DNA of 7,300 nt from positions 2,215-9,514 of the forward strand of contig MGSU01000146.1 of the NCBI GenBank assembly GCA_001799195.1, written 5' to 3'. This document shows, one piece after another, positions 1 through 7,300 of the stretch; the first letter of the stretch is position 1; each line of letters starts with the position of its first letter. The notes below the pieces were generated by a model, which had not been told where the DNA came from, did not search any database, and was given only the letters and a program-made list of their open reading frames with translations. Made by a program: the position numbers and the translations under genes. The DNA is from Deltaproteobacteria bacterium RIFOXYA12_FULL_61_11. Lineage in GTDB: Bacteria; Bdellovibrionota_F; JAHFAK01; YA12-FULL-61-11.

Positions 1-3000
1 AGCACGGTCCAGGGCCCGAACTCGGGGAAGAACGGGGCCAGGTTGGTGTCGACCACATTGATGGTCAGCTCGATGCTGCCGGTGAGGGCCGAGCTGCCGC
101 CGGCCGTCTCTGCGGCGGTCACGGTCACGGTGTAGGTGCCGAGGTCGTCGTAGTACGGCGTGATGGTCAACACGCCCGGGGCTTCCATCTTGGCGTTGTA
201 CAGGGTGTCTGCACCCTGAGCCAAGGTCATGAAGTCCGGCAGGTCAACGCTGCCGAGGGTCAGACCGCTGGCCGACGAGGTTGCCTCGTAATCGCGGCCG
301 CGCAGATCCACGGTCAGCGTGCCGCCCTTGTTCACGTCGTAGGTGAGCGTGGTCGGCAGGCGGAAGTAGGGTTTACGGTTGTAGGTGAAGCGGCTGATCG
401 TGCCGGTCTCCCCGGCTATGTACACCGCCAGACCGACGCCGCTAGCGATATTTTTGGATACGATTACGCCGGTCGGTCGTACGACACCCGCGCCGGGCAG
501 GTCACCTGCCTCGATCACGGTGCTGGGCTCGGCGGCCTCGTCCACGTTGCCCAAGGACAGTATGCTGGAACCGAGCACATACAGGTTGTTGGCGTAGTCG
601 AAGACCATGTCGCCCTGGGTGCGATCGGAGTAAACCTCGCCGAGCTGCGCCACCTCGAGCGGTGGGTTGTCGGTGTCGAGCGAACCGACGGTATCGAGCG
701 GAAGCTCGTAGACCGCGCCGCTGGACATTGCAACGTAGAGGCGTCCTGAGCCGCTGAAGGCCAAGTCGAGAGGCAGGTCGCTGGCGAGGTCGACCTCCCC
801 GAGCTCGATCCCAAACTGCGGTTCGAACTCGACGATCCGGGCGTCGCCGGAGACGTCGAAGCTGGCGAAGAGGTGGCCGTTCGGCCCCAAGGCCAGGCCG
901 AGGCCGGCGTAGGTGGTGTCGGAGAAGAGCACGGTCTCGACGTTCTCCGCCGGGGTTGCACCCTTGGTATCGACCCGGGTCAGTGTACCCGTGTCGGTGA
1001 GGTAGACCAGTTTACCCTGGTCGTCGAAGGCCGCGTCGATGACGCCTTGCTCGTCGACCACCTTGGTTGCGGCGGGAGTGGTCGTGCTCAACCGATAGAT
1101 ACCGTCTTGAGCCGCGGCCACCATGGTGCCGAAACCATCGCGGTAAGCGACGGCTCGGGGTGGGACCTCGCTCAGACCGGTGACCAGGCCGTTGCCGGTG
1201 GTGACGGTGGCGAAGCCGTTAGAGATGGGTACCACCGCCACGCCGCGCTCGACCGAGACCTTTACGGTGCGCTTGACGGTGTGCAGAGTCAGCTCAACCC
1301 AGTTGTTCTGGGCGTCATAACCCCAACGGGTGTCGGTGATCTTGAGCTGCACCTCAGCCGTGCTGCCCAGCGGTCGGTCAGCGGCCGGAGCGAGCTGCAG
1401 GTAGCACGGGTACCAGTAGTCGTTACCGGCGTAACAGGTGCTCTGGCTGGTGCCGTACTTCTGGAGGGTGATCCAGCTCGGCGGGGTGTAACCGTCGGCA
1501 AAGGCCACCAGGCGGTTATCGTACTCGGGGTCGGTGATCGCCGTGTCGAGGTTGAGGGAGTTGATGGCGGCCGGGGCCACGTGCAGCACGTTGGGCAGGG
1601 CCACGACCGGTTGAGCGTTGCGGTTGCGCACGTCGAAGCAGACGTCGGCCACGTCCAGCGAATTCAGACCGAATGGGTCTGTTGTACGGAGACGGACGCA
1701 CTTCTCCTCGACGTCATAGCTGGTGGCGTTGAGCGGCGGCACCACCAAGAGGGTCGTGCCGTCGAACTCGACGTTGGCACAGTCGATCCAGCGAGTCGGG
1801 TTCCACTCCGGCGCGTAGTCGACACAGGAATAGACCAGGGTGTCGCCGTTCGGGTCAAAGAAGGCGTTTTGGTCGTTGCCGACCTTCGAGGCGTCGTACA
1901 GGGAGTAGCTGTACTCCTCGAGCTCGGTCACGGCCGGGGTGCCGTACCATGAGGCGTGGTCTTCGCAGCGCCACGATGAACCCTCCCAGTAGCAGTAGCT
2001 CTCGAAGAAGCCCATCGAAACCACCGGCGGTAGGTTTTGGCCGGAGACCGAGACCTGCACATCGAGGTCCACGGTCAAACTGCCGTCGCAGACCCCGTTG
2101 TTGAGGTAGCGGAAGGCGAACGTGACCGCGTAGTCGCCCGAGGCGTCGTCGGCGATGTCGGAGGCCTCGAAGTAGGGGTCGTTCCACCAGCCGCCGACGA
2201 ACAGGGCGCTCGCGGGGGCATCACCGATCGGCGTGACCACCGGGTCGAGCCACATGCAGATCTTGTTGTCCGGATCGTTGAAGAGCTGCCGGATGTTGCG
2301 GTGGTAGCTCGAGGTAGAGGACAACTGATCGACGATCTGCAGGTCGGTGTAGGCCGGGGTCGGGTCGACCGCGGAGTTGGTGACGTCGAAGAGGATGCTG
2401 AAGTCGAGGTAGAGGTTGGTGTTGTCGCGAGCCCGGAAGCCGACCCAGAACTGGGAGTTGCCGGTAACCAAGTTGGAACCCGGGTCGAGGGTCACGGTGC
2501 CGTCGTTGGCCACCGTGAACACCGTCTGGCCCGAGGCCACGGAGTCGTTGATGTTGGCGCTGTCGTTCAGGTAGCTGAACGCGGTGAATGCGGTCGGTCC
2601 CTCGTCGTCGCTCACCCAGTCGAGCAGCGAGAAGGTGAATTGGCCCTGCCCTTCGGTCACTGCGAGCGAGGCGTTGGAGTATTGCACGGGTTGGGTCGGA
2701 CTGTTGTAGACCCGCACCTTGGTCGAGGTGGCGCCGACGAAGACGTTGTTGGCCGTACCGGGATCATTGTCCGGGTCGTAGGCCACGCTGATCGGGAAGG
2801 TGAAGTCCTTGGGCGACGCGCTGCTGGTCAGCACGCTGCGCCGGATCTCGGACCAGTTCAGCTCGAGGGTGTTCTGGGTTCCGTAGTAGAGCTGGAAGAG
2901 GTCGAAGTCGCCGGTACCGCCGCCCTGATCGGCGTCAGGTACGAAGCCCGAGAGCGGGTCGTTGGCGTGGAAGAAAACGCAGTTTGCGTCGAGGCGACGG

Positions 3001-6000
3001 TCGCAGTCATTGACGACCAGGGCCAGGCCGTCGGGATTGACGACCACGTTGTCGCCGCCGCCGATGAGCAGCCGCTGGGCGTAGCCGCAGTTCTGGGTAC
3101 AGGTTGGGTGGTTTTGCTCGTACGCGGTCTGACGCGCGGTGTCGGCGTTGTAGCCGGCGTTGAGGATCGGGGCGCGATTGACTTGCTGTACCCGGAAGTT
3201 GAGCTGAGCGGTGATCTCGGCCGAGAGTTCGTCCCTGGCCTTGAGGTAGACGTACTGGCCGCCAACCGGGTTACCAGGTGAGGCTACCTCGTACCCCGGG
3301 GTGAAGGTCAGCACGTTGGAGGTGACGGCCGGGGTAGCGCCCGTGCCGTAGTAGTACGGGTCGTAGGTATAGTTCTCGTTGAGCAGCACGTTCAACGTGG
3401 CCGGGTCGTCCGGGTCGGTCAAGAGGGTCTTGCAACCCACGGCCGGCTCGGAGCAGGGCACGAGCAGGTCGGGCGCCGCGGTGCGGAACAAGGCCGTGTT
3501 GAAGTTGAGGCTCTGGGCGGCGTTCTCGTTGATGGCTATCCAGCGCCCACCGAGGTCGAAGTTGGCTATCGGCGCCTGGTTGACGTTCTGCACGGTGACC
3601 ACGAAGTCCAGCCGGGTGGTCTGGCCGCTGAAGGCCGGGTCGGCCTGGGTGAGGTCGTAGCTGAAGGTGAAGGTGCCGCCGGCCCTGGCTACGGTGGCCA
3701 GGGAGACCGTGGCCCAGTGGAAGTAGTTGTAGCCCCATTGCGGATAGTACAGCTCGGTCGAGTTGGGCTGCGGGGTTTGCGGGTCAATGTCCTCGCCGGG
3801 CACCGAGACCGGAGTCACGGTCAGGAAGTCACCGTCCGGGTTGAGGATGAAGTTGTTGAAGTCGACGTAGCTGATGCCGCCGCAGAAATAGTTGATCGTG
3901 GTCGGGTTGGACCAGTTCACATTGTTGCAGCGGTTGTCCCAGCCGCCCTGTTCGTAGGCGGTGATGAGCACTTGGGCACGGTTGGCAGAGATCTGCCGCA
4001 CGGTGTGGTCGACCGGGAAGCACAGCCCGTGGTAGCCGGAGCCGACCACCGCGTCGCGCGCCTCGACACTGAGGCAGACCTCGTTGTCGTTGTTCGGGTC
4101 GCCGCTCACGGTGTAGTTGGGCGTGAAGTCGAGGTAGGTGGTGCCGTCGGCTGAGCGCAGGGCCGGCAGGCCGGTGAACTTGCCCTGGTCGATGGAGTAG
4201 GTGTCGAGCAGGAAGGTCAGGCTGTCGTTGTCGGCGTCGTCGTAGAGGGCGTTGAGGTCGATGCTGAAGGCGTCGCCCTCTTTTGCCTGGAACATGAGCG
4301 GCTGGTTCCAGCGGGTCAGAGCGTTGCGGAAGGGACTCTGGTTGACGTTCTGCACCGTGACCGAGAAGTCGAGCTGCTGGCCTTGGCCGGTGTAGAGCGG
4401 GTCGGCCTGTTCAACCAGGTAGCTGAAGGTGTAGGTGGTGCCAGCCGGGCCGACCGTGGTCTGGCTGATCGGGTTCCACAGCAGGCGGTAGTCGCCGTAC
4501 CAGGGCACGTAGAAGAGGTCGTCAGCGTCGGGTTGTGGGGTCTGCGGGTCGTGGTCGGCCTCGGGGTCGAAGACCGGGTTGATCAAGACCGCGTCGCCGT
4601 CCGGGTTGTTGAGGAACTCGTTGAAGAAGATCTCGAACGAGCCGCAGAAGTAATTGATCACGGCCGGGTTGGTCCAGTTTTTGGAGAGGCCGCAGCGGTA
4701 GTCGTTGCCGTTTTGCTCCAGGGCCACGAAGTTAACAGTGGACCGCTTGAGCGTGACCTGGCGCACCACGTGGTCGACCGGGAAGCACAGGCTGTGGTAG
4801 CCGGATCCGACCTGGGCGTCGCGGGCCTCAATGCTCAGACAGACCTCGGCGTCGTTGTTCGGGTCGCTGCTCACCGTGTAGTTCGGGGTGAACTTGAGGT
4901 TGGTGGTGCCATTCTCTGCGGTGAGGGTCGGCAACACCTGGTATTTACCGGCGTCGACCGTGTTCTGGTCGAGCAGGAAGGTCAGGCCGTCGTTGTCGGC
5001 ATCATCGTAGAGGGCGTTGAGGTCGACCGAGAAGGCTGTGCCCTCGGTGGCCTGGAACAAAACAGGTTGGCTCCAGCGGCTGACCGCGTTGCGATACGGT
5101 GCGGTGTTGACGTTCTGCACCGTGACCAGGAAGTCGAGCTGGCTGGTCTCCCCGGTATAGAGCGGGTCGGCCTGCTCGACCTGGTAGCTGAGGGTGTAGG
5201 TCATGCCGGTTGGTCCGACCGTGGCCTGGCTGATGGGGTTCCAGGCGAAGCGGTAGTCACCGGGCCAGGGGCTGACCAGGAGGTCGTCGGAGTCGGGCTG
5301 CGGAGTCTGCGGGTCGTGGTCGGCCTCGGGGTCGAAGATCGGACTGATCAGGAGCACATCGCCGTCCGGGTTGTTGATGAACTCGTTGAAGAAGAGTTCG
5401 AACGAACCGCAGAAGTAGTTGACCACGGCCGGATTGGTCCAGTTTTTCGGGTAGGCGCAGCGAGCGTCGTTGCCACTCTGCTCAAGGGCCACGAAGTTGA
5501 CCGAGCTGCGCTTGAGGGTGATCTGGCGCACCACGTGGTCCACCGGGAAGCACAGGCTGTGGTAGCCGGAGCCGACCAGGGCGTCGCGACCCTCGATGCT
5601 CAGGCAGACCTGTTCGTCCCAGTCCGGATTGTTGCTCACCGTGTAGTTCGGGGTGAACTTGAGGTTGGTGGTGCCGTTCTCGGCGGCGAGGGTCGGCTGG
5701 AACAGGTACTTGCCCGCATCCACCGTGTTCGCATCGATGGCGAAAGCGAGGTTGTCGTTGTCGGCGTCATCGAACAGCGCGTTGAGGTCGATGGCGAAGG
5801 CCGAGCCCTCGGTGGCCTGGAACAGCGAGAGGTTGGTGCCGCTGCTCACGTTGTTACGGTACGGGGCCTGGTTGACGTTCTTGACCGTGACCACGAAGTC
5901 GAGCTGGCTGGTCTCGCCGGTGTAGAGTTCGCTGGTCTGCGAGACCAGGTAGCTGAAGGTGTAGGTCGCGCCCTCGGTGCCGACCGTGGTCCGGGTGATG

Positions 6001-7300
6001 GGGTTCCAGGCGAAGCGCCAACTGCCAAAGTTCTGGAGCAGCTCGGCCGCGTTCTTTTGCGGGGTGAAGGGGTCGAAGTCCTCGTTCGGGTCGTAGACCG
6101 CCTCGACCATCACAGCGTCGCCGTCCGGATTGTCGATGAAGTTGTTGAAGTCGATGTCGATGGTACCGCAGAAGTAGTTGATGGTGGTCGGGTTGACCCA
6201 GGACACGGTGTTGCAACGGGTGTCGAAACCGTCCTGCTCCAGGGCGGTCAGGATGACCTGGGTGCGCTTGAGGGTGACCTTACGCACCACGTGATCAACC
6301 GGGAAGCACAGGCCGTGGTAGCCCGAGCCTACGATGCCGTCGCTGGCTTCGATATTAAAGCAGATCTCGTTGTCATAGTTCGGGTCCTGGCTCACCGTGT
6401 AGCTGGGAGTGAACACCGCGTAGGTGACGCCGCCCTCGGGCAGGATAGCCGGGACGGAGCTGTACTGGCTACTGGTTACCGACATGGCGTCGATGCGGTA
6501 CGACAGGAAATCGTTGTCGCCGTCGGCGAAGAGTTGAGAGAGGTTGATGCGCTTTTCGCTGCCTTCTTGGGCCTGGAACAGGGCCGGGTTGGTCCAGCGG
6601 TCGACCGCCGTGCGGTACGGGGTCTGGTTGGCGTTGTTCACCGTAACGTTCACGGTGAAGGCTAAAGGTTCGACCGCGGGATACATGCTCTGGCCGATGA
6701 GGAGCTCGGCCGTGAAGGCGGCGAAGCCCGGTCCGTTGACTGTGGTCGCCGCGATGGGGTTCCAGTTCAACCAGGCCTTGGTGATGCGGTCGGTTATCAG
6801 GTCGTGCTCGAATTTCAGCACGGGTGTGGGGTAGGGCCCCTGCGACTCGGTCGTGCCCAGGGCTTGGGCTTGTCCTCCCTCCGGCGTCCACGTACCGCTG
6901 ACGAGGTAACCGTCGCCGTCGACGTTGTTGATGTAAGTGCTGAGGTCGATGTTGAAGCCACCGCAGTTGGCGGTGCAGTTGGGTACTCCGGCAGGGGTCC
7001 ACTCGTAGGCCGTGAGCGGAAGGTCGGTGCGCTTCAGGGTGATCGGCCGCACCGTGTCCGCGACGTTGAAGCAGAGGTCCCACATGCCCGAGTTGATCAG
7101 CCCGTCGCTGGCCTCGAGGCGTACGCAGGTCGAGCCGTTGTTGAGGTTGTCCGGGTTGGTCCAGTCGCGCCAAGCCAGGTCGTACTTGGTGGTGAAGGTC
7201 ATGAGGTTATTGTCGATGATCGGCTTGACGAGGAAATTTGTCGACCAGGGTTGGTCGGTGCCGAGCTTGAAGAACAGGGTGTCTTCATCGGGATCCGTGA
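1..7300 (-). CDS. Giant multidomain cadherin-like/Ig-like repeat protein with an internal beta-propeller (partial at both ends)
   Basis: One minus-strand frame is open from edge to edge: 2,432 complete codons, with no TAA, TAG or TGA found on reading it through. Start and stop lie outside the window. Anchor motifs spread along it are all in this frame: NVNQAP-type linkers at 6627, 5871, 5106, 4341 and 3579, VNRAP at 3177, propeller blades at 1241-381 and DTNLAP near 42, so no frameshift is visible. Domain order is five repeat modules of about 255 residues, one diverged module, about four weaker sandwich domains, a propeller, then more cadherin-like domains. The protein is rich in Asp, Asn, Thr, Tyr and Val, poor in Lys, and has regularly spaced cysteines, as expected of an exported, oxidised protein. 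No transmembrane stretch or enzyme active site is seen. By family analogy it is a cell-surface or secreted adhesin or stalk. That function is inferred; the continuous coding frame is near certain. Confidence 0.95.
45..380 (-). other. Cadherin-like/Ig-like domain following the propeller
   Basis: Residues about 2307-2418. It begins NRKPYFRLPTTLTYDVNKGG, has LTVDLRGRDYEATSS, VDLPDFMTLAQG, VLTITPYYDDLGTYTVTVTA and closes with the strand IELTINVVDTNLAP. This is the usual order of a bacterial Ig/cadherin-like domain of the putative Ig (He_PIG) or tandem cadherin type: a PxF entry, an acidic turn, an LTITP strand, a G-x-Y-x-V-x-V strand and an N-x-AP exit linker. DTNLAP stands where the upstream modules have NVNQAP, and the next domain (FFPEFGPW) starts at once and leaves the window. 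It has no cysteines and is closer to generic family members than to the R1-R5 modules. Confidence 0.68.
381..1241 (-). other. Beta-propeller domain of about six NHL/SMP-30-like blades within the giant protein
   Basis: Residues about 2020-2306. The composition changes to short repeats of roughly 40-48 residues, each with a hydrophobic strand, an acidic or glycine turn and a second strand. Cores are AVAYRDGFGTMVAAAQDGIY, DAAFDDQGKLVYLTDTGTLT, LALGPNGHLFASFDVSGD, DLAFSGSGRLYVAMSSGAVY, DMVFDYANNLYVLGSSIL and VIVSKNIASGVGLAVYIAG. The pattern xAFDxxGxLYVxxxxGxIxR is typical of NHL, SMP-30 and related propellers. Six blades are visible; a strand just before them (NGFATVTTG) could complete a seventh. 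The region contains no cysteine, unlike its neighbours. Such domains usually bind ligands or proteins; no catalytic metal site can be picked out, so a binding role is more likely than an enzymatic one. Confidence 0.7.
1245..2036 (-). repeat. Two Cys/Trp-rich Ig/cadherin-like domains before the propeller (possible module R8)
   Basis: Residues 1755-2018. The first domain (about 2036-1617) opens NLPPVVSMGF, has an aromatic, cysteine-rich patch (YCYWEGSSWRCEDH), then FFDPNGDTLVYSC as the acidic motif and EKCVRLRTTDP...DVCFDVRNRNAQP. The CVRL...CFDV pair corresponds to CLSI...LCFPV of the upstream modules. The second (about 1616-1245) has AITDPEYDNRLVAF, a cysteine pair in STCYAGNDYWYPCYL and the strands VQLKITDT and VELTLHTVKRTVKVSV. 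Both look like exported sandwich domains. Descent from the upstream module is suggested by the cysteine pair but not proved. Confidence 0.55.
2037..2702 (-). repeat. Two tandem Ig/cadherin-like domains, possibly a degenerate module (R7)
   Basis: Residues 1533-1754. The first domain (about 2702-2376) has SLAVTEGQGQFTFSLLDWV, SDDEGPTAFTAF, a DGTVTLDPG turn and FWVGFRARDNTN before the strand FSILFDVTN; this follows the EG...F, DD, ARD order of a module's first half. The second (about 2375-2037) has LFNDPDNKICMW, SGDYAVTFAFRYLNNG and the closing strand LTVDLDVQVSV, in the order of a second half. Cysteines are few (ICMW, GVCDG) and do not keep the module spacing. Beta-sandwich identity is fairly secure; membership of the module family is tentative. 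Confidence 0.55.
2703..3581 (-). repeat. Module R6: diverged 293-residue unit with a clear internal domain linker
   Basis: Residues 1240-1532. The first domain starts NQAPIANFDLG and has a cysteine pair in a new place (VPCSEPAVGCK), then LTDPDDPATLNVLL, LTFTPGYEV, YVYLKARDELSAE and the linker RVQQVNRAP at about 3177. The second domain has TAYEQNHPTCTQNCGY, VVNPDGLALVV, an extra segment with NDCDRRLDANC, then NWSEIRRSVL and a closing strand TKVRVYNS. The TAYE...C..NCG pattern matches the second half of R1, and NPDG and NWSEI fall where R2-R5 have NPDGD and WNPIS. It is therefore read as one enlarged module copy. The homology is by eye and is weaker than for R2-R5. Confidence 0.65.
3582..4343 (-). 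repeat. Module R5: complete 254-residue two-domain cadherin-like unit
   Basis: Residues 986-1239, starting NQSPFRN. The first half follows R4 closely: RWNQPLMFQAKEGDAF, DDADNDSLTF (DADND at 4224-4238), DFTPNYTVSGDP, VCLSVEARDA and GYHGLCFPVDH. The second half has DNRCNNVNWSNPTTINYFCG and DFNNFILNPDGD (NPDGD at 3828-3842), nearer to R2 than to R4, then DPQTPQP. The usual WNPISQTTVG is altered to HWATVSLATVA. It closes with LDFVVTVQNVNQAP. All four cysteines are present. Confidence 0.88.
4344..5108 (-). repeat. Module R4: complete 255-residue two-domain cadherin-like unit
   Basis: Residues 731-985, the close sister of R3 and the same length. The linker at its start reads NVNTAP, with Thr in place of the usual Gln. 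Landmarks are RWSQPVLFQATEGTAF, DDADNDGLTF (DADND at 4989-5003), NLKFTPNYTVS, VCLSIEARDA, GYHSLCFPVDHVVRQ, SKNWTNPAVINYFCG, FFNEFLNNPDGD (NPDGD at 4593-4607), DPQTPQP, WNPISQTTVG and YTFSYLVEQADPLYTG. All four module cysteines are kept. It matches the module consensus most closely. Confidence 0.9.
5109..5873 (-). repeat. Module R3: complete 255-residue two-domain cadherin-like unit
   Basis: Residues 476-730. Landmarks in order are NQAPYRN, LFQATEGSAFAIDLNALF, DADND (5754-5768), FTPNYTVS, VCLSIEGRDA, GYHSLCFPVDHVVRQ, KNWTNP, NYFCGSFELFFNEF, NPDGD (5358-5372), DPQTPQP, FAWNPISQ and LDFLVTVQNV. Cysteine codons are at 5604, 5550, 5457 and 5409, giving gaps of 18, 31 and 16 residues that recur in R4. 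R3 and R4 align over all 255 residues without a gap and are about three-quarters identical by eye, so they are the most recent duplicates in the array. Confidence 0.9.
5874..6629 (-). repeat. Module R2: complete 252-residue two-domain cadherin-like unit
   Basis: Residues 224-475, running from NQTPYR to just before the next NQAP. The first domain carries FADGDNDFLSY (DGDND at 6510-6524), SYTVSQDP, then EICFNIEASDG and GYHGLCFPVDH. The second carries TRCNTVSW, NPTTINYFCG, DFNNFIDNPDGD (NPDGD at 6117-6131), FAWNPITRTTVG and YTFSYLVSQ, closing with the strand LDFVVTVKNV. The loop usually reading DPQTPQP is DPFTPQK here. Paired acidic motifs of this kind coordinate calcium in cadherin-type sandwiches; that binding is family knowledge and not shown here. 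The second half resembles R5 more than the adjacent R3. Confidence 0.87.
6630..7298 (-). repeat. Module R1 (5' part cut by the window edge): diverged two-domain cadherin-like unit
   Basis: Residues 1-223. The window opens at the acidic motif DPDEDTLFF (7281-7295), the counterpart of DDADNDxLTF in the other modules, so only about 35 residues of this unit are missing beyond the right edge. The first half ends with STCVRLEASDG and DLCFNV, the cysteine pair found in all modules. The second half has a shortened cysteine pair (NCTANCGG) in place of the RC...NYFCG of R2-R5, then NNVDGDGYLV as its acidic motif and LNWNPIAATTV before the closing strand. It ends with the linker NNANQTP. It is clearly homologous to R2-R5 but the most diverged of the first five, and lacks the DPQTPQP loop. 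Confidence 0.8.

Follow-up and report, generated by a model that had tools for sequence, protein, structure and literature searches.

The 7,300-nucleotide window analysed here (G000:C146:2215-9514, from a source genome of 4.64 Mb in 342 contigs that is 87% complete) probably represents the central part of a giant surface lipoprotein of ~3,800 amino acids, the stalk of which has been lengthened by tandem duplication of a two-domain unit of ~255 amino acids. We consider this to be the best explanation of the data as a whole, with more confidence in the anatomy of the protein than in its role. A single minus-strand frame is open across the entire window (3-7298; 2432 codons, no stop) and, together with a contig join, identifies this stretch as an internal part of one gene that starts on contig C60 and stops on C146, outside the window. 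Contig C146 terminates inside module R1 of the repeat array, with the remainder of the 5' part of the gene located on C60; the ends of the two contigs have in common 18 bp that are unique in the genome, and joining them is in frame and completes R1. The gene start, three other N-proximal domains, an extra B domain and module R0 are all on C60. The joined product is ~3,807 amino acids long, with the final ~270 residues conditional on a 7-N gap (L005:2208-2214) immediately beyond the edge of the window. The continuity of the gene, the repeat, the constraint on the coding sequence, the pairing of cysteines within domains and the lipobox pattern can all be read from the sequence itself.

The existence of the repeat, proposed in an earlier sequence-only reading of this DNA, is borne out by both DNA repeats and protein alignment. 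Each of the DNA repeat families D1-D3 is represented by four copies, spaced by 756-765 nt and 66-77% identical, and the alignment delineates modules of 253-255 amino acids in the one open minus-strand frame, each consisting of an A half followed by a B half: R2 (5862-6620, 253 aa; A half 6620-6279, B half 6278-5862), R3 (5097-5861, 255 aa; 5861-5523 and 5522-5097), R4 (4332-5096, 255 aa; 5096-4758 and 4757-4332) and R5 (3570-4331, 254 aa; 4331-3993 and 3992-3570). The array is real but longer than the originally reported range, 3582-6629, because the window also includes the partial R1 (6621-7298; A half 7298-7044, with its first ~32 residues on C60, and B half 7043-6621) and the degenerate R6 (2703-3569; A half 3569-3168, B half 3167-2703, the latter with four cysteines), and R0 and one B domain lie on C60. 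The signature originally assigned to R2-R5 turned out to be looser than proposed: EVCLSIEARDA and WNPISQTTVG are exact in R4 only, R3 and R4 both carry GYHSLCFPVDHVVRQ unchanged, and near variants occur elsewhere. The acidic motif NPDGD is present in all four of these modules, whereas DADND is found in R3-R5 and is replaced by DGDND in R2. Likewise, the near-fixed spacing of four cysteines applies to R2-R5 (18/31/15 in R2 and R5, 18/31/16 in R3 and R4) but not to R1 (18/32/4).

The fragmentation of the assembly into 342 contigs, the contig end within the array and the nearby 7-N gap are the features that might suggest an assembly artefact or a non-coding duplication. However, a collapsed or chimeric assembly is expected to yield near-identical copies, whereas 20-36% of the bases differ among R2-R5, and not a single stop codon interrupts the 2432 codons of the frame. 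Furthermore, in the comparison of R3 with R4, the synonymous rate exceeds the replacement rate (dN 0.16, dS 0.56, dN/dS about 0.3), and this is therefore a constrained coding sequence. Given this pattern of divergence, we reject an artefactual repeat as extremely improbable. The dS values are also equal in the two halves of the module (0.565 and 0.551 for R3/R4; 0.587 and 0.576 for R4/R5), from which it follows that A and B were copied together, that is, the two-domain unit was duplicated as a whole, in agreement with the initial proposal. The B half of R5 (3570-3992) shows a dN/dS of about 0.8 relative to R4, compared to about 0.34 for the A half of R5 at the same dS; this faster protein evolution may mark a changed function.

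From the N-terminus, the joined protein consists of the signal, an N-terminal domain (residues 26-272), domains D1 (273-374, with a weak Big_9 match), D2 and D3, the B-type D4, the A-B pairs R0-R6, four more domains, a beta-propeller (3120-3405), a cadherin/PKD/He_PIG-like domain and a C-terminal region; altogether, there are ~22 cadherin-like domains, 8 of which are B-type. The lipoprotein signal, MKSSRCSTVSGLLALLGILFLTTGC, which begins at L012:12338, fits the PROSITE PS51257-type lipobox pattern (LTTG directly followed by Cys at 25), and this signal argues against the type I export associated with RTX/Bap-type secreted adhesins. Downstream of the array, on the minus strand of the window, the four further domains (1239-2702; individually 2702-2370, 2369-2034, 2033-1608 and 1607-1239) end in V.V-type linkers and, judging by these linkers and DPNGD-type motifs seen on inspection of the sequence, appear to be cadherin-like; a Pfam search with them produced no significant match. 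They are followed by the predicted beta-propeller region (381-1238), which is SGL/NHL-like, with matches below the Pfam cut-off (PF08450, E 6.6e-5; PF20067, E 0.0034), and by a cadherin/Ig-like domain (45-380) with weak similarity to PKD, He_PIG and Big_9. Directly downstream of the giant gene, on the same strand, an AhpC/TSA peroxiredoxin and an Fe/Mn superoxide dismutase are encoded (L005:645-1223 and 2-604, minus strand). The start-bearing contig encodes SpoVR, DUF444 and a third protein, which we take to be PrkA-like, in a row (L012:3999-8750, minus strand); the close relatives of the latter, with 70-75% identity, belong to mixed phyla.

When the domain limits were set from the linker motifs, each of the 26 domains was found to contain an even number of cysteines, 46 in total when the lipobox Cys and Cys6 are not counted. 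With cysteines placed at random, none of 200,000 trials produced even counts in all domains, and the result was again 0 of 200,000 with R3-R5 excluded. The first two cysteines of the module co-occur, both being present in R1-R5 and neither in R0 or R6; in the A half of R6, these positions are not cysteines, and a different pair, 7 residues apart, is found. The third and fourth cysteines are both retained throughout R0-R6, even as the spacing between them falls from 16 to 4 among the copies. In the module model, strands 84-93 and 97-108 of the A half form the last hairpin, where C86 and C104 would be exactly opposed (86+104 = 93+97). Together, the even counts, the co-occurrence of C1 and C2, the retention of C3 and C4 and the modelled hairpin constitute strong indirect evidence of disulfides within domains. 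In the A half, a disulfide between C1 and C2 would thus link the two strands of the last hairpin, and the B half would carry a loop of ~26 columns, putatively closed by C3-C4 and inserted between the first two core strands.

The initial interpretation was that each unit may combine two sandwich domains that differ in fold, with a signature unlike that of ordinary cadherin or tandem-95 repeats. The present results favour the opposite on both counts: A (~113 aa) and B (~140 aa) most likely represent divergent variants of the same cadherin-like sandwich fold of the Big_9/He_PIG/tandem-95 type, and a relationship with those repeats is the likelier reading. The structure models, built on a five-sequence alignment, are of modest confidence. 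In the model of a whole module (R4; mean pLDDT 59), most of the A half reaches about 72-88 and the B half is poor; modelled alone, the B half of R3 forms a sandwich (pTM 0.66, pLDDT 65). The PDB matches of this B-alone model are mostly cadherin EC domains (Foldseek probability up to 1.00, E 0.006), with a VIA Z of ~8 (up to 8.2) and an rmsd of 3.6 over 104 residues, Z values that unrelated models also reach. The A-half model matches the dystroglycan juxtamembrane cadherin-like domain (probability 0.99) along with other cadherin/Ig-like sandwiches, at Z of 7-8.6, again within the range reached by unrelated models. With such intermediate Z values and shallow alignments, we treat these matches as support rather than proof.

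Profile comparisons add to this evidence. The A profile scores 28.6 against the cadherin-like domains of the paralogues, compared to a maximum of 16.7 over 200 column shuffles, and accordingly is similar to canonical domains. For B, the score against canonical domains is 33.5 but drops to 16.3 without the linker, so that this weak link mostly reflects the linker motif. Compared directly, A and B score 20.8 unedited and 25.1 once the Cys loop of B is cut out, a score that covers the stretch from strand A to DxDxD; the unrelated control profiles, the N-terminal domain and the propeller, score 7.5-13.2 and were used as the yardstick, one shuffled run having yielded a spurious 132.4. Given these scores relative to the controls, B is best described as a domain of the A kind into which a Cys-closed segment has been inserted. 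The alternative that A is cadherin-like and B is an unrelated sandwich, either novel in fold or a carbohydrate-binding module that the Cys loop closes, could draw on the lack of a Pfam match for B, on the weakness of the direct, unedited A-B comparison (hhalign probability 4-6%) and on the Rib 'long' domains that Foldseek also retrieves for B. We nevertheless reject it as improbable, given the cadherin EC matches of B alone and the increased A-B score after loop removal. Moreover, in both halves, a strand ending in xE is followed by a hydrophobic strand and then a DxDxD-type loop, and the B half terminates in the usual N.NQ.P linker.

The absence of an existing family model over the whole unit, as anticipated in the sequence-only reading, is upheld by searches of Pfam, NCBIfam and PHROGs. 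No repeat half reached a curated cut-off: the best match, of one A half to Big_9, had an E of 0.014 and 16.7 bits against a required 23.6, and B had none; NCBIfam tand_rpt_95 gave 12.5 bits against a cut-off of 90, and a PDB sequence search with the A or B profiles yielded no significant match. With Big_9 (PF17963), He_PIG (PF05345), Cadherin_4 (PF17803) and tand_rpt_95, the unit has in common the predicted beta-sandwich, the first-strand Glu, the DxDxD loop and the V.V.N.N..P linker, as well as the occurrence in tandem arrays in large exported proteins and, for the A half, a profile link. It differs from them in falling below the family cut-offs, in the Cys pair in each half, in the ~26-column Cys loop of B and in being duplicated as two domains. 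Thus, the class of fold is already known, and the Cys-paired two-domain unit is without a family model or a confirmed relative in the sets searched; nor did we find a description of such a Cys-paired unit in the literature.

The expectation of a taxonomically limited family fits the searches made, with the unit found only in its own genome among the GTDB contigs, IMG/VR, plasmids and 385 other genomes, apart from one weak match to the A half. Scans of the GTDB contigs and IMG/VR with degenerate patterns, which have limited reach, revealed no confirmed relative, and the plasmids contained no relative of the unit; the genome sampling, at one per species, is likewise limited. The weak match came from the profile search of 386 genomes, the source genome included, and lies in a giant ORF of 3573 amino acids (G144, E 5e-4), in a stretch that reads as a cadherin-like domain; a 55-aa frame in another genome (G019) was dismissed as chance-like. 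The B-only profile had no match outside the source genome in the same 386 genomes. The repeat, the N-terminal domain and He_PIG are all missing from the sole same-class genome compared (G001, 96% complete), in contrast to the 47 He_PIG matches in the source genome.

Within the source genome, the N-terminal domain of the giant lipoprotein is shared with two paralogues, on contigs C196 (1278 aa) and C53 (1300 aa), which contain Pfam-significant Cadherin_4, He_PIG and Big_9 domains. Like the giant protein, these paralogous lipoproteins have the lipobox Cys and the homologous N-terminal domain followed by cadherin-like domains; unlike it, they carry 2-3 canonical, Cys-poor cadherin-like domains in place of the long A-B array. 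On visual inspection, the long C-terminal regions of both resemble propellers. Three further long ORFs with lipoprotein-like starts are rich in Cys (1.8-2.2%): L136 (C310, 3190 aa), L137 (C102, 3110 aa) and L140 (C254, 1520 aa). Those on C310 and C254 include many He_PIG domains and both carry the N-terminal motif DKKFVAQDPGSS; none of the three significantly matched the A or B profiles.

With regard to function, our best reading is that of a surface stalk or adhesin lipoprotein stiffened by disulfides and probably by Ca2+, with the surface location and adhesion as its presumptive aspects. Under this model, the lipoprotein signal would direct export and the lipid would anchor the protein, presumably at the outer surface; oxidation would then staple each domain within itself, and the acidic loops, DADND and NPDGD, together with the conserved first-strand Glu, probably bind Ca2+ at domain junctions. 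The Glu and the DxDxD residues are conserved, and the repeat is predicted to bind Ca2+ at its acidic loops and linkers. Ca2+ may bridge alternate junctions only, because the N.NQ.P linker is missing where A passes into B (FPVDHVVRQ). The stapled domains would hold the protein as a stiff rod bearing the C-terminal beta-propeller, and this rod could act in adhesion or in binding a surface or extracellular polysaccharide.

Comparison with characterized systems bears on the choice between a structural stalk and repeats that are mainly catalytic or ligand-specific modules, such as polysaccharide lectins. RapA2 and other Ra/CHDL lectins of Rhizobium are extracellular, cadherin-like and calcium-dependent, and bind exopolysaccharide (PMC5061743), and the conserved Trp/Tyr/Asn-rich loops of the B half (NWTNP..NYF) could bind a ligand as well. 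RapA2 is a small, PrsDE-secreted two-domain lectin. The 20-odd similar serial domains of the present protein, with no catalytic signature or family match, better fit an extender. Extenders made of cadherin-like and Big_9 domains have been described in adhesins such as BapP of Pseudoalteromonas tunicata (EAR30327); in this large protein, sandwich repeats of these two kinds occur in tandem, DxD Ca2+ motifs are present and an extender role is proposed (PMC12153261). The likeness to BapP and related Ca2+-dependent giant adhesins is one of architecture rather than of a demonstrated common sequence family, and the lipoprotein signal, the Cys-paired domains and the beta-propeller near the C-terminus distinguish the present protein. 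On balance, a primarily lectin-like or catalytic role for the repeats appears possible though doubtful, and we retain the stalk as the preferred interpretation. A stronger version of the latter would make the unit an undescribed repeat class, confined to a poorly sampled lineage, whose A and B halves form an obligate pair. Each unit would have one cross-strand disulfide and one loop closed by Cys, and a very long surface rod would owe its stiffness to redox stapling instead of to calcium at all of its junctions; we offer this version as a fairly unlikely one.

Taken together, these results suggest that, in a lineage of which hardly any relatives have been sequenced, long surface fibres were built from a common sandwich domain that diversified into two Cys-pair forms and was amplified as a pair. 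Such proteins, which current family models miss, could be recognised with a profile built from the A-B unit. If the disulfides are real, this protein would represent a bacterial case of covalent staples stabilising long cadherin-type rods.
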